From the NCBI GenBank assembly GCA_013202295.1, contig JABMRT010000115.1:1-39343 (forward strand): DNA of 39,343 bases, read 5' to 3'. The position numbers were made by a program, and so were the translations under genes. Source of the DNA: Candidatus Zhuqueibacterota bacterium. Its GTDB lineage: Bacteria; Zhuqueibacterota; QNDG01; JABMRT01. The notes beneath the pieces are model-generated. The model was not told the DNA's origin and searched no databases. It was given only the letters and a program-made list of their open reading frames with translations. Of this stretch, positions 15,987-37,917 are shown in pieces; position 1 is the stretch's first letter, and each line of letters opens with the position of its first letter.

Positions 15987-16024
15987 AAAACCTGCCGGAT
16001 TATAAATCCTGGCAGGTTTTTTTA
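15987..16024 (+). terminator. Strong intrinsic terminator of csp, REP-like
   Basis: AAAACCTGCC (15987-15996) pairs with GGCAGGTTTT (16011-16020); the stem continues inward with GGATT/AATCC and one bulge, and a run of T follows to 16023. The outer arms are the same AAACCTGCC/GGCAGGTTT arms as the repeats at 33555, 33673 and 36798, so this terminator looks like a member of that palindromic family. Confidence 0.85.
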
Positions 16025-33475: not shown

Positions 33476-33554
33476 CTACCAAATTGTCGATGATTTTCTT
33501 GCTTGTTTATAACAAAAAATGTATTATTCCTCAACCAATTAATTTTATCATTAA

Positions 33555-33583
33555 ACCTGCCAGGTCTCGGAGACCTGGCAGGT
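33555..33583. repeat. REP-like palindrome, CCTGCCAGG family
   Basis: ACCTGCCAGGTCTC and its exact inverse GAGACCTGGCAGGT are separated by one base, giving a 14-base-pair hairpin. The outer arms match the copies at 33673 and 36798 and the csp terminator. Confidence 0.85.
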
Positions 33584-33672
33584 ATGAACATGATTCCCCC
33601 TTGCATGTTTCTCCCGAAAACATTATTATTAACTATTCATTCGATTTGATCTGAAACAAAGTTTACCTTTTA

Positions 33673-33703
33673 AACCTGCCAGGTTTTAGAAACCTGGCAG
33701 GTT
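33673..33703. repeat. REP-like palindrome just before the restriction gene start
   Basis: AACCTGCCAGGTTT (33673-33686) and AAACCTGGCAGGTT (33690-33703) are perfect inverted copies around TAG. The hairpin ends 10 bases before the ATG at 33714, so it occupies the place of the ribosome site; only a weak AAGAGA remains between hairpin and start. Confidence 0.85.
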
Positions 33704-33713
33704 AAGAGACACT

Positions 33714-36700
33714 ATGAAAAATCAGAAAGACACAATTCATTCTCTCGTTGAGAAATTTCAGCATAATCTGAACGAATATAAAAATCCCAAATACAATGAA
33801 ACGCACATTCGCGTGGAGTTCGTGAATCCATTCTGGGAGGCGTTGGGCTGGGATGTCCATAACAAGGCCGGATATTCCATGCAGTACCGGGATGTGATCC
33901 ACGAAGATGAAGTGAAGGTGGGGGGCACGACCAAGGCACCGGACTATTCTTTCCGCATCGGCGGCAAACGTATTTTCTTTATGGAAACAAAAAAACCTTC
34001 CATAGATCTGAAGCACGATCCTGCGCCTGCGTTTCAACTCCGCCGTTACGCGTACAGCGCACGCCTGCCGGTTTCTATCCTGACTGACTTCGAAGAGTTC
34101 ATCCTCTATGACACCCGTGTCAAACCTGCCATCACGGACAAGCCGCATGTGGGCCGCATGCTTTATTATACGTTTGACGAGTATGCCAAACATTGGGACG
34201 AGATTCAATCCATCTTCTCAAAAGAAGCGGTGATGCGCGGCGATTTCCAAAAATTCATCGAGAACAATCAGGGCAAGAAGGCCCGCGCGGAAATTGACCG
34301 CGACTTCCTCAATGATCTCGATAGCTGGCGCGTCCAGCTTGCCCGGAATATCGCGCTGCGCAATCCGGGCCTGTCCGAAAGAGAACTGAACTATGTGGTC
34401 CAGCTTACAATTGACCGGCTGATTTTTCTGCGCATGTGTGAGGATCGCGGCATTGAATCTCAATATCCGTTACGCAACATCCAAAATGGCGAAAATGTGT
34501 ATCCCCGCCTGGTCGAGATTTACTATCGTGCGGATGAACGGTACAATTCCGGCCTGTTTCATTTTGAGGCGAAGGACGGTTCGCATCCTGACGTGATTAC
34601 GCCTCATCTCAAGATGGATGACAAAATCCTCAAAGAGATCCTCGCTTATCTTTATTATCCGAAATGCCCTTATGAATTCAGCGTGCTGCCCGTCGAGGTG
34701 CTGGGCAACGCGTACGAGCAGTTTCTGGGCAAGCGCATTACGCTCACCGAGGGGCATCGGGCGCGCATTGAAGAGAAGCCCGAGGTGCGCAAGGCGGGCG
34801 GGGTGTATTATACGCCGCAATATATTGTGGAGTATATTGTCCGCAATACGGTCGGCAAACTGGTTGAAGGCAAGACGCCGAAAGAGGTGAGCGATTTGCG
34901 GATTTGCGACCCGGCGTGCGGATCAGGCTCCTTCCTGCTCGGCGCGTATCAGTTTCTGCTCGATTGGCATCTTGAACAGTACCGGATCGAATTTGAAGCG
35001 ACCGGCCAATTTCCATCTTCGCCTCCCGCCAAAGGGCAGCGGGCGCGCAAGTCCGATCCCCAGGCCATATATCAGGGAGCTGGCGGCGCGTGGTATCTTT
35101 CCACGACTGAAAAGAAGCGGATTCTCCTCAGCAACATTTACGGGGTGGATATTGACGCGAATGCCGTGGAAGTGACCAAGCTAAGCCTTTTACTGAAGGT
35201 TTTGGAAGGGGAGAACGCCGAGAGTTTGCACAGCCAGATGAAACTGTGGCATGAACGGGCGCTGCCGAATCTCTCCAGCAATATCAAATGCGGCAACTCC
35301 CTGATCGGGCCTGATTTTTATGAGCATCAGCAAGGTTCCCTTTTTGATGAAAATGAAGCGATGCGGATCAATGCGTTTGATTGGAAAGCCGAATTCTCCG
35401 AGGTGTTCGCGAATGGCGGGTTTGATGCGGTCATCGGGAATCCGCCGTACATTCGTATTCAGGCAATGAAGGAATGGGCGCCTGTCGAAGTTGAATTTTA
35501 TAAACAGAAATATAAGTCCGCGTCAAAAGGAAATTATGATATTTATGTTGTTTTCGTAGAAAGAGGATTGACGCTTTTAAATCAAGATGGATTACTTGGT
35601 TTTATTTTGCCGCATAAGTTCTTTAATGCTAAATATGGTGAGCCCTTAAGGAATATTCTTTCACAGGGCAATAATATTGAAAGAATTGTACATTTTGGTG
35701 ATAATCAAATATTTAATAATGCTACTACTTATACATGTCTTCTATTTCTTAATAGAAATTTATCCGCTGAATTCAACTATATAGAAGTTGATAATGTTGA
35801 TGAATGGTTAATGGGTGATGAAGGTTTTCAAGAATTGAAGAGCCAAGAAACATTTTCGGGGAATGAATGGCATTTTATAATCGGAAAGGGAAATCAACTA
35901 TTCGAAAAATTAAATTCAACAAACATTAAACTAAGTGATGTTTCTGATCGAATTTATCAGGGACTGATAACAGGCGCTGATTCAGTATTTATATTAACAG
36001 ATGTTGCAAAAAATAGATTCTTTTCTGATGCTCGACAAAAAGAATATAAACTTGAATCAAAATTACTTCACCCTCTTTGTAAAGGTTCAGTGAACTTAAA
36101 AAGATATTTTGTAAAAAATTTAGAGAAAAGTATTCTGTTCCCATATAAGTATGTAGCAGGCAAAGCAGAATTGATTAGTAAAACAGAATTGCAGAATAAC
36201 TATCCGAATACTTGGAAATATCTTATTGAAAATAGAGCAGCATTAGAAAGTCGAGAACATGGTAAATGGAAACATGATAGATGGTATGCGTTTGGAAGAT
36301 CACAAAATCTGAGTGAAATGGAACAGCTGAAAATTATGACACCAAGTATTGCAATTAGAGCTTCCTTTTCAATTGATGAGAAAAAGGATCTGTTTTTTGT
36401 AGGTAGTGGTGGTGGCGGCGGTGGTGGGTACGGTATTATTGTTAAACCTGGTTTCGAGTATTATCAAATACTTGCACTGTTAAATTCTAAATTGATAGAC
36501 TGGTATATTAAACAAATAAGTACGCCCTTCAGTGGTGGATATTTTGCATATAATCGTCAATATATAGAAAAGATACCAATTGTTGAAATAGCTTTAGATA
36601 AACAGAAAAATATTGTCACTTGTGTAAATCAAATCCTCGACTTGCACAAGAAGTTGGCCGAGGCGCGGGAGCCGCGCACGTGCGAGACGCTGCAGAGACA

Positions 36701-36791
36701 GATTGATGCGGTTGACGCGCAGATTGACAAGTTGGTGTATGAGTTGTACGGGTTGACTGTGGAGGAGGTGCGGGTGGTGGAGGGGGGGTAG
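33714..36791 (+). CDS. Type IIG restriction-modification enzyme (Eco57I/TaqI-like methylase with nuclease)
   Basis: 1025 aa, restriction, modification and specificity in one chain. An N-terminal PD-(D/E)XK nuclease has D77 in APDYSF and E91-T-K93 in METKKP. After a helical region comes the N6-adenine methylase: motif I DPACGSGSFLLGAY (D399 onward) and motif IV GNPPYIR (N576 to Y579). The C-terminal target-recognition part contains the TaqI-like VGSGGGGGGGYG and ends in a coiled tail with VYELYGLTVEEVRVVEG. The enzyme should methylate adenine in its site and cut unmethylated DNA. DNA for residues about 590-970 (35480-36620) is clearly AT-rich, whereas both flanks are GC-rich. The start is overlaid by a REP palindrome and a run of seven G lies just before the stop. 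Confidence 0.93.
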   Translation: MKNQKDTIHSLVEKFQHNLNEYKNPKYNETHIRVEFVNPFWEALGWDVHNKAGYSMQYRDVIHEDEVKVGGTTKAPDYSFRIGGKRIFFMETKKPSIDLKHDPAPAFQLRRYAYSARLPVSILTDFEEFILYDTRVKPAITDKPHVGRMLYYTFDEYAKHWDEIQSIFSKEAVMRGDFQKFIENNQGKKARAEIDRDFLNDLDSWRVQLARNIALRNPGLSERELNYVVQLTIDRLIFLRMCEDRGIESQYPLRNIQNGENVYPRLVEIYYRADERYNSGLFHFEAKDGSHPDVITPHLKMDDKILKEILAYLYYPKCPYEFSVLPVEVLGNAYEQFLGKRITLTEGHRARIEEKPEVRKAGGVYYTPQYIVEYIVRNTVGKLVEGKTPKEVSDLRICDPACGSGSFLLGAYQFLLDWHLEQYRIEFEATGQFPSSPPAKGQRARKSDPQAIYQGAGGAWYLSTTEKKRILLSNIYGVDIDANAVEVTKLSLLLKVLEGENAESLHSQMKLWHERALPNLSSNIKCGNSLIGPDFYEHQQGSLFDENEAMRINAFDWKAEFSEVFANGGFDAVIGNPPYIRIQAMKEWAPVEVEFYKQKYKSASKGNYDIYVVFVERGLTLLNQDGLLGFILPHKFFNAKYGEPLRNILSQGNNIERIVHFGDNQIFNNATTYTCLLFLNRNLSAEFNYIEVDNVDEWLMGDEGFQELKSQETFSGNEWHFIIGKGNQLFEKLNSTNIKLSDVSDRIYQGLITGADSVFILTDVAKNRFFSDARQKEYKLESKLLHPLCKGSVNLKRYFVKNLEKSILFPYKYVAGKAELISKTELQNNYPNTWKYLIENRAALESREHGKWKHDRWYAFGRSQNLSEMEQLKIMTPSIAIRASFSIDEKKDLFFVGSGGGGGGGYGIIVKPGFEYYQILALLNSKLIDWYIKQISTPFSGGYFAYNRQYIEKIPIVEIALDKQKNIVTCVNQILDLHKKLAEAREPRTCETLQRQIDAVDAQIDKLVYELYGLTVEEVRVVEGG

Positions 36792-36797
36792 GTAATT

Positions 36798-36877
36798 AAA
36801 CCTGCCAGGTTTCCAAAACCTGGCAGGTTTGAACAGGCAGGTTTGAACAGGCAGGTTTGAACAGGCAAGTTTGAACA
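36798..36877. repeat. REP-like palindrome plus 14-base tandem array upstream of RAYT
   Basis: AAACCTGCCAGGTTT and AAACCTGGCAGGTTT form a hairpin at 36798-36830. Its right arm runs into four tandem copies of the 14-base unit GGCAGGTTTGAACA (36822-36835, 36836-36849, 36850-36863 exact; 36864-36877 with one change). So half-sites of the palindrome have been amplified. The element sits between the stop of the restriction gene and the RAYT gene. Confidence 0.9.
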
Positions 36878-36909
36878 ACCGGTACGTTCAGGTTGAAATA
36901 AAATTGAAT

Positions 36910-36927
36910 AACCTGGCAGGTTTGAAC
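36910..36927. repeat. REP half-site near RAYT
   Basis: AACCTGGCAGGTTTGAAC repeats the right arm plus the tandem unit from 36820-36835. A degenerate further unit (GACAAGTTTGA) follows at once. It lies 43 bases before the RAYT start. Confidence 0.75.
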
Positions 36928-36969
36928 CGACAAGTTTGATAAAAATAAAATCCAACCGGGATAAAATAG

Positions 36970-37548
36970 ATGTCCTATACGATTCCACTTGTGGCTGGCG
37001 GGTATTATCACATTTTTAACCGTGGGAATAATGGTGAGAATCTGTTTGTTGAAGAGGCCAATTATCACTATTTCCTTGATCAATATACCAAACACGTTGC
37101 TCCAAGAGTCAATACATATGCATACTGTCTGTTGCGCAATCATTTCCATCTGTTGATACAAATTCATGAAAATCAAGAGGATTTTAAAAACCCGGTTTCG
37201 AAATCCTTTTCTAATTTATTCAATGCATATGCACGGGCGTTTAATCAGCGGTATGCCAGACATGGGTCATTATTCGAAAAACCTTTTCACAGAAAGCCCA
37301 TAAAAACCCAGAATCAACTCATCCAGACCGTGTATTACATTCACGCCAATCCGGTCAAACACGAATTTGTAGACGATATAGAAGACTGGCCTTACAGTTC
37401 GTATTCCATTTACTCTTCGGATAAAAAAACCAAACTGTCACGCAAGGAATGTATGTCGTGGTTTGATACGCGGGATGGATTTATGGAGTATCATCGAACG
37501 ATGCGTTTGAATCAAGTGGATCAGGCGCTGGAGTTGGATTTTGAATAG
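36970..37548 (+). CDS. REP-associated tyrosine transposase (RAYT, IS200-like Y1 domain)
   Basis: 192 aa single-domain Y1 transposase. It contains GGYYHIFNRGNNGENLF, the HUH metal motif in LLRNHFHLLIQ (H58, H60), QRYARHGSLFEKPFHRKP, and the catalytic Tyr in TVYYIHANPVKHEFV (Y122 or Y123) followed by DWPYSSYS. These are the marks of RAYTs (TnpA_REP), which nick single-stranded DNA at REP hairpins and are thought to spread REPs without being full insertion sequences. The gene follows directly on a REP palindrome, tandem half-sites and another half-site, as expected of a REP-RAYT unit. ATG 36970 has only a weak GGGATAAAA site. The reading frame is intact. Confidence 0.92.
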   Translation: MSYTIPLVAGGYYHIFNRGNNGENLFVEEANYHYFLDQYTKHVAPRVNTYAYCLLRNHFHLLIQIHENQEDFKNPVSKSFSNLFNAYARAFNQRYARHGSLFEKPFHRKPIKTQNQLIQTVYYIHANPVKHEFVDDIEDWPYSSYSIYSSDKKTKLSRKECMSWFDTRDGFMEYHRTMRLNQVDQALELDFE

Positions 37549-37594: not shown

Positions 37595-37665
37595 ACCGAA
37601 GAAAATAAAAAACCATTTAGCCTCCAATCCACAAAGATAATTCGATAACAGAAAGGATGACCAAA

Positions 37666-37779
37666 ATGGGAGACAAAGGCGGAAAGAAGGATAAGGACAA
37701 ACATAAGAAACAGAAGCAAAGTAAAGAGAATAAAGACACACAAAAGAAAGCTGATAAGCAACCGAAAAGAACCCCATAA
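37666..37779 (+). CDS. Lysine-rich microprotein
   Basis: 37 aa, beginning MGDKGGKKDKDKHKKQKQSK and ending KQPKRTP. About 40% of residues are Lys, the rest mostly polar, with no hydrophobic core, so it is likely disordered and nucleic-acid binding. AGAAAGGA lies about 12 bases before the ATG. Short Lys-rich proteins starting MGDK are scattered through bacterial genomes without known function. It lies between the RAYT and a restriction-gene remnant. A translated gene is likely from the ribosome site and strong bias, but composition alone could mislead. Confidence 0.55.
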   Translation: MGDKGGKKDKDKHKKQKQSKENKDTQKKADKQPKRTP

Positions 37780-37809: not shown

Positions 37810-37911
37810 TGGGTGCTGAACCAGAGCCGCTATATCCAGCAGATTGACAAGCTGGTTTACGATCTCTACGGGTTGACTGAGGAGGAGGTGCGGGTTGTGG
37901 AGGGGAAGTAG
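37810..37911 (+). pseudogene. Remnant of a second Type IIG restriction gene 3' end
   Basis: In one frame the DNA reads RYIQQIDKLVYDLYGLTEEE followed by VRVVEGK and a stop, nearly identical to the end of the intact restriction enzyme (QIDKLVYELYGLTVEE then VRVVEGG). The DNA is similar too but not identical, so it is a diverged relative rather than a fresh duplicate. Upstream the similarity stops at about 37828, so only the last 28 codons survive. It marks the far side of the RAYT/microprotein segment. Confidence 0.8.
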
Positions 37912-37917
37912 GAATCC

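Follow-up and report, generated by a model that had tools for sequence, protein, structure and literature searches.

A compact, atypical REPIN-RAYT unit without a GTAG tag in a Candidatus Zhuqueibacterota genome

The window, i.e., the whole stretch of 39,343 nucleotides analysed here, carries a gene for a REP-associated tyrosine transposase (RAYT) that is preceded by a short palindrome and by repeats of one of its arms. The features are:

36970..37548, plus strand: RAYT (REP-associated tyrosine transposase) gene, 192 amino acids, HUH at residues 58-60, Tyr123
36798..36830, no strand assigned: REP doublet (REPIN-like), a 33-nt nested palindrome with 15-bp arms and a 3-nt loop
36822..36877, plus strand: 14-bp tandem half-site array, 4.0 copies of GGCAGGTTTGAACA (TRF, 97% matches)
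36909..36923, plus strand: extra half-site TAACCTGGCAGGTTT
33553..33585, no strand assigned: REP doublet, intergenic
33672..33704, no strand assigned: REP doublet, 11 bp upstream of an Eco57I-like restriction-modification gene
15987..16019, plus strand: degraded doublet with a one-base deletion, after a csp gene

The initial annotation described a perfect CCTGCCAGG palindrome before the RAYT gene. The doublet reads more exactly AAACCTGCCAGGTTT-cca-AAACCTGGCAGGTTT, a perfect inverted repeat with a DNA fold of -17.1 kcal/mol (z -7.9), and each 15-nt arm is near-palindromic in itself (CCTG-N-CAGG). The four 14-base tandem half-sites and the further half-site beyond them are present as annotated, the array units being the RAYT-proximal arm in direct orientation, and the copies placed at 33555 and 33673 are the two doublets listed above. 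Arms of the palindrome had also been noted in the csp terminator at 15987; they form the degraded doublet, which still folds as a hairpin, is followed by a T-run and likely serves as the csp terminator. The window holds 8 matches to AAACCTGNCAGGTTT with at most 2 mismatches, against 0.14 expected by chance.

The encoded protein has an intact HUH motif (H58-F59-H60) and catalytic Tyr123, as annotated, and H58, H60 and Tyr123 are invariant in 25 relatives. The NCBIfam model NF047646 (REP_Tyr_transpos) matches it at 7.6e-21 and 74.5 bits, slightly under the cut-off of 80, and Pfam Y1_Tnp is borderline (22.9 bits vs 23). REP_Tyr_transpos is matched by all 25 relatives in A1, while the IS200 model is touched by 2 of the 25. 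The sole PDB sequence match is 4er8, E. coli TnpA_REP, which is also the best structural match of the AlphaFold model (pLDDT 90.8; TM 0.74 by target), followed by the IS608 and ISDra2 transposases. The window protein is thus a Y1 HUH protein nearer to TnpA_REP than to IS200 TnpA. The E. coli residues W94, Q95, E100, H101, and R104, which have been connected with the reading of GTAG (PMC6006769), align with F102, E103, R108, K109, and K112 of the window protein.

The initial annotation proposed counting the palindrome in the whole genome, and this was done by pattern searches with the reversed pattern as control in the MAG from which the window comes (5.15 Mb, 303 contigs, 96% complete). The half-site core ACCTGNCAGGT occurs 41 times vs 3 for the control, and the doublet 15 times vs 0. 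The doublets are intergenic, many of them between tandem or convergent genes, with one exception on contig C21 that lies within an 80-aa ORF, probably spurious; matches within long genes are single half-sites in about the number that the control predicts. The RAYT gene is therefore flanked by REP sequences repeated in the genome, and the repeat has the make-up of a REPIN, i.e., two inverted REPs that a short spacer separates and that can fold into a hairpin, in dispersed intergenic copies. A second RAYT, on contig C71, has 82% amino acid identity to that of the window and the same palindrome on both sides, and at a dN/dS of 0.21 these two diverged paralogues are under purifying selection. A third RAYT (C300, 42%) has a related palindrome (CCCTGNCAGGG; CCCTGACAGGG). 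The fourth (C40, 34%) has CCTCCCGAAGG, and its 29-nt doublet was found only at its own two flanks and nowhere else in the genome at up to 3 mismatches, so that amplification of the repeat is not a feature of all RAYTs. G001 and G002, the nearest relatives, had neither doublets of the family of the window palindrome nor a RAYT orthologue.

Pairing between gene and palindrome was followed in 71 related RAYT loci, which were picked by similarity to the window RAYT so that the percentages hold for that sample. Inverted repeats with arms of at least 12 and a loop of at most 5 were present at 53 of 142 flanks (25 upstream, 28 downstream) vs 1 of 120 control segments taken 455-700 bp away, and their modal length was 33 nt (25 of 53). 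Where both flanks carried a palindrome, the upstream and downstream copies shared at least 13 nt in 17 of 18 loci, whereas about 5% of mismatched upstream/downstream pairs shared at least 10 nt; the exception, L021, has the same family with another central base. The comparison with the RAYT phylogeny, also suggested earlier, revealed co-variation, as palindrome similarity tracks RAYT identity (Mantel r=0.40, 0 of 5000 permutations, p<0.0002). The CCTGNCAGG palindromes fall within one RAYT clade, to which a Flavobacterium belongs, and other families such as AAGGTTACCTT and CCTTGCGAAGG would be non-cognate to the window RAYT. Four families keep to a core of 29 nt (11-7-11) nearly without exception, and the control gave no matches; the arms are self-complementary across 17 distinct families (Wilcoxon p=3e-5). 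As the RAYT relatives have their own matching hairpins, the pairs look co-evolved. No conserved guide or cleavage motif was seen outside the palindrome, and in 30 outward flanks neither a conserved base past the 33-nt core nor the GT[AG]G foot of the canonical GTAG REP was present. The doublets of one genome, G018 (L098-L100), share longer flank similarity (TTTAAGGCCGCAC...), as though they lay within a larger repeat.

Palindromes also occur inside RAYT genes. In five relatives (L028, L029, L030, L082, and L079) a 33-nt palindrome, i.e., 11 codons, lies in frame after the HUH motif, beginning at amino acid 65-71, and L079 has three copies, the further ones at 86 and 110. These in-frame palindromes are without GT[AG]G and belong to the same family as the flanking ones wherever flanks were found (L028, L029, L030, L079). 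In two Collierbacteria RAYTs, L111 and L112, CCTGCAGGGCCAGGCCCTGCAGG palindromes flank the gene and are also found in frame within it, twice in L111 and once in L112.

Between the doublet and the start codon, the RAYT-proximal arm was significantly repeated in direct orientation in 10 of 24 loci, by a test devised after the window and a few relatives had been seen, and in a few of the 10 the repeats are further whole doublets. Half-site repeats of this kind are also seen near the RAYT start of relatives whose palindromes differ. The array of the initial annotation is real, but the idea that it is unique to the window was rejected; of this recurring feature it is the longest case found.

The proposal that one repeat family is tied to one mobiliser does not hold strictly, as the palindrome accompanies two RAYTs in the own genome and a related one accompanies a third, and as G018 has 18 CCTGNCAGG doublets although its assembly yielded no RAYT of this clade. 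Similarly, G037, G045, and G061 have 14-26 CCTTGCGAAGG doublets each, and together with G018, G069, and G001 they make six assemblies in which 7-26 doublets of one family occur and a RAYT of this clade is lacking; as most of the genomes are fragmented, the absence of the gene is uncertain. Doublets are nevertheless commoner in genomes with a CCTG-clade RAYT (3 of 4 vs 8 of 95; Fisher p=0.004), i.e., the link is enriched but not exclusive. RAYTs resembling subclass 2.6 were rejected as the source of the doublets in G018, G037, G045, and G061 because those genes are not flanked by them. REPINs persist in E. coli genomes without the RAYT (PMC8049555), which makes it plausible that the RAYT was lost from genomes such as G018.

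Populations without a RAYT of this clade would also be expected if the palindromes were bidirectional terminators or mRNA stabilisers that spread or converged independently of the RAYT, which just landed among them. In line with this, many copies immediately follow a gene or separate convergent genes, and a T-run comes after the csp copy. This explanation is nonetheless improbable, as it fails to predict that upstream and downstream palindromes are shared at each RAYT, that their sequence tracks the RAYT phylogeny or that they enter the RAYT coding frame, and a terminator scan left the doublets near 33.5 and 36.8 kb unflagged. Equally unlikely is a second alternative, in which the RAYT and the palindromes on its two sides form an IS200-like mobile element (or TIRtron) whose ends have left remnants as the dispersed palindromes. 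In its favour, the palindromes near both gene ends resemble subterminal hairpins, two RAYT copies are present in one genome and the flanking pair is all that was found for the C40 RAYT, but the two copies are diverged and under purifying selection, unlike active IS copies, the relatives match the RAYT model rather than that of IS200, and the dispersed copies are 33-nt doublets with no further conserved flank.

The REP-RAYT identity is well supported by the match to REP_Tyr_transpos, the structural match to 4er8, the enriched intergenic palindrome, the cognate flanks and the co-variation. The preferred reading, with a probability of about 0.8, is that the locus is a REPtron, i.e., a domesticated single-strand HUH transposase with the 33-nt hairpin of two inverted, approximately 15-nt REP half-sites as its candidate substrate. 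Binding, cleavage and movement by the RAYT would follow from its homology to TnpA_REP. The hairpin most likely extrudes in single-stranded DNA, e.g., the lagging-strand template, where the RAYT would bind it in its folded form and Tyr123 would make the cut, at the hairpin foot or close to it; rejoining of the cut hairpin elsewhere would then seed intergenic copies at a low rate. As the GTAG-reading residues are changed in this clade and the repeats are tagless, recognition probably rests on the symmetric stem and the fixed length. The half-sites by the RAYT start, for which the initial annotation suggested repeated cleavage or slippage, probably arose through slippage from the REPIN arm, and they may in addition serve as RAYT binding sites and regulate the gene.

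The unit is an atypical REPIN-RAYT: compact, without a GTAG tag and with arms that are palindromic in themselves. With E. coli TnpA_REP/REP (Bertels group 2; subclass 2.2) it shares the HUH Y1 fold, with 4er8 as best match, and inverted REP pairs that flank the gene and are dispersed in intergenic DNA, but it has neither the GTAG tag nor the bulged stem, and the GTAG-contact residues are replaced. As in the REPINs of Pseudomonas fluorescens SBW25 two inverted REPs form a hairpin and clusters adjoin RAYT genes, but those units measure about 70-110 bp and number hundreds of copies, compared with 33 nt, a 3-nt loop and tens of copies here (PMC3116915). The published motif table of Quentin et al. 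(2018) was the only basis for comparison with subclasses 2.4, 2.6, and 2.1, and none of them fits cleanly. In-frame REPs in tnpA between HuH and Y, reported as unique to subclass 2.4 (Bertels group 4), and symmetric double-foot REPs are found here too, but the REPs of that subclass have GT[AG]G and C[TC]AC feet and its members are without the SS tail, neither of which fits (PMC6006769). Subclass 2.6 (Bertels group 5) likewise has atypical structures without GT[AG]G, copies elsewhere in the genome, an SS tail and a mostly Bacteroidetes distribution, but its motifs are NH[LIV]H/WQ/YIH[QN]NP vs NHFH/LFE/YIHANP here and its HuH-Y spacing is about 82 vs about 65 (PMC6006769); genes resembling 2.6 occur separately in the same genomes as this RAYT clade. 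Placement in 2.4 or 2.6 was discarded because the motifs differ and the tag is missing. TIRYT/subclass 2.1 (PMC3733652, PMC6006769) has the motifs NH[YF]H, F[QE], and YIHxNP and some self-complementary TIRs in moderately abundant families, but its proteins have a C-terminal HTH and a median length of 238 aa, and REP-like repeats were not found there; here the length is about 190 aa and repeats are abundant. To judge from sequence motifs and repeats, this RAYT would thus resemble 2.1 in its motifs, 2.4 in its in-gene insertions and 2.6 in its tagless structures. The 18-nt repeat of Caldithrix abyssi is also a short perfect palindrome, with 38 intergenic copies, many of them convergent, and no RAYT is linked to it in the available part of the source (PMC5317091).

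It is tempting to speculate, at somewhat less than even odds, that a RAYT clade over several phyla uses tag-free, two-fold symmetric recognition, with a 33-nt nested palindrome of fixed 18-nt centre-to-centre spacing whatever its sequence, and with the same unit, of exactly 11 codons, inserting in frame into the RAYT gene after HUH. If true, this REP recognition strategy would differ from both of those already characterised; RAYT biochemistry, as far as was found in the literature, has used GTAG-tagged REPs. The large natural set of tagless RAYT-hairpin pairs, with constant geometry and freely varying sequence, makes RAYT-REP recognition and co-evolution directly testable by pair swaps. The set likewise widens the range of REPIN-like populations to little-studied phyla, and some of these populations outlast, or do without, a RAYT of this clade.

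A small, conserved lysine-rich ORF of about 40 aa (MGDKGGKKDKDK...) lies at 37657-37779 of the window, downstream of the RAYT, and again in the own genome (G000) at C71:7358-7468, there upstream of the RAYT, and at C21:26791-26901, each copy within about 0.9 kb of a CCTGNCAGG doublet. Its candidacy as a REPtron part is weakened by homologues in other genomes, three of which were examined and had no RAYT or palindrome doublet evident nearby. Two REP doublets (33672-36830) enclose the Eco57I-like restriction-modification gene, at distances of 11 bp from its start and 8 bp from its stop. The 3' end of this gene is duplicated (36719-36792 and 37839-37912, 86% over 74 bp), so that homologous gene ends lie on either side of the RAYT and the small ORF.
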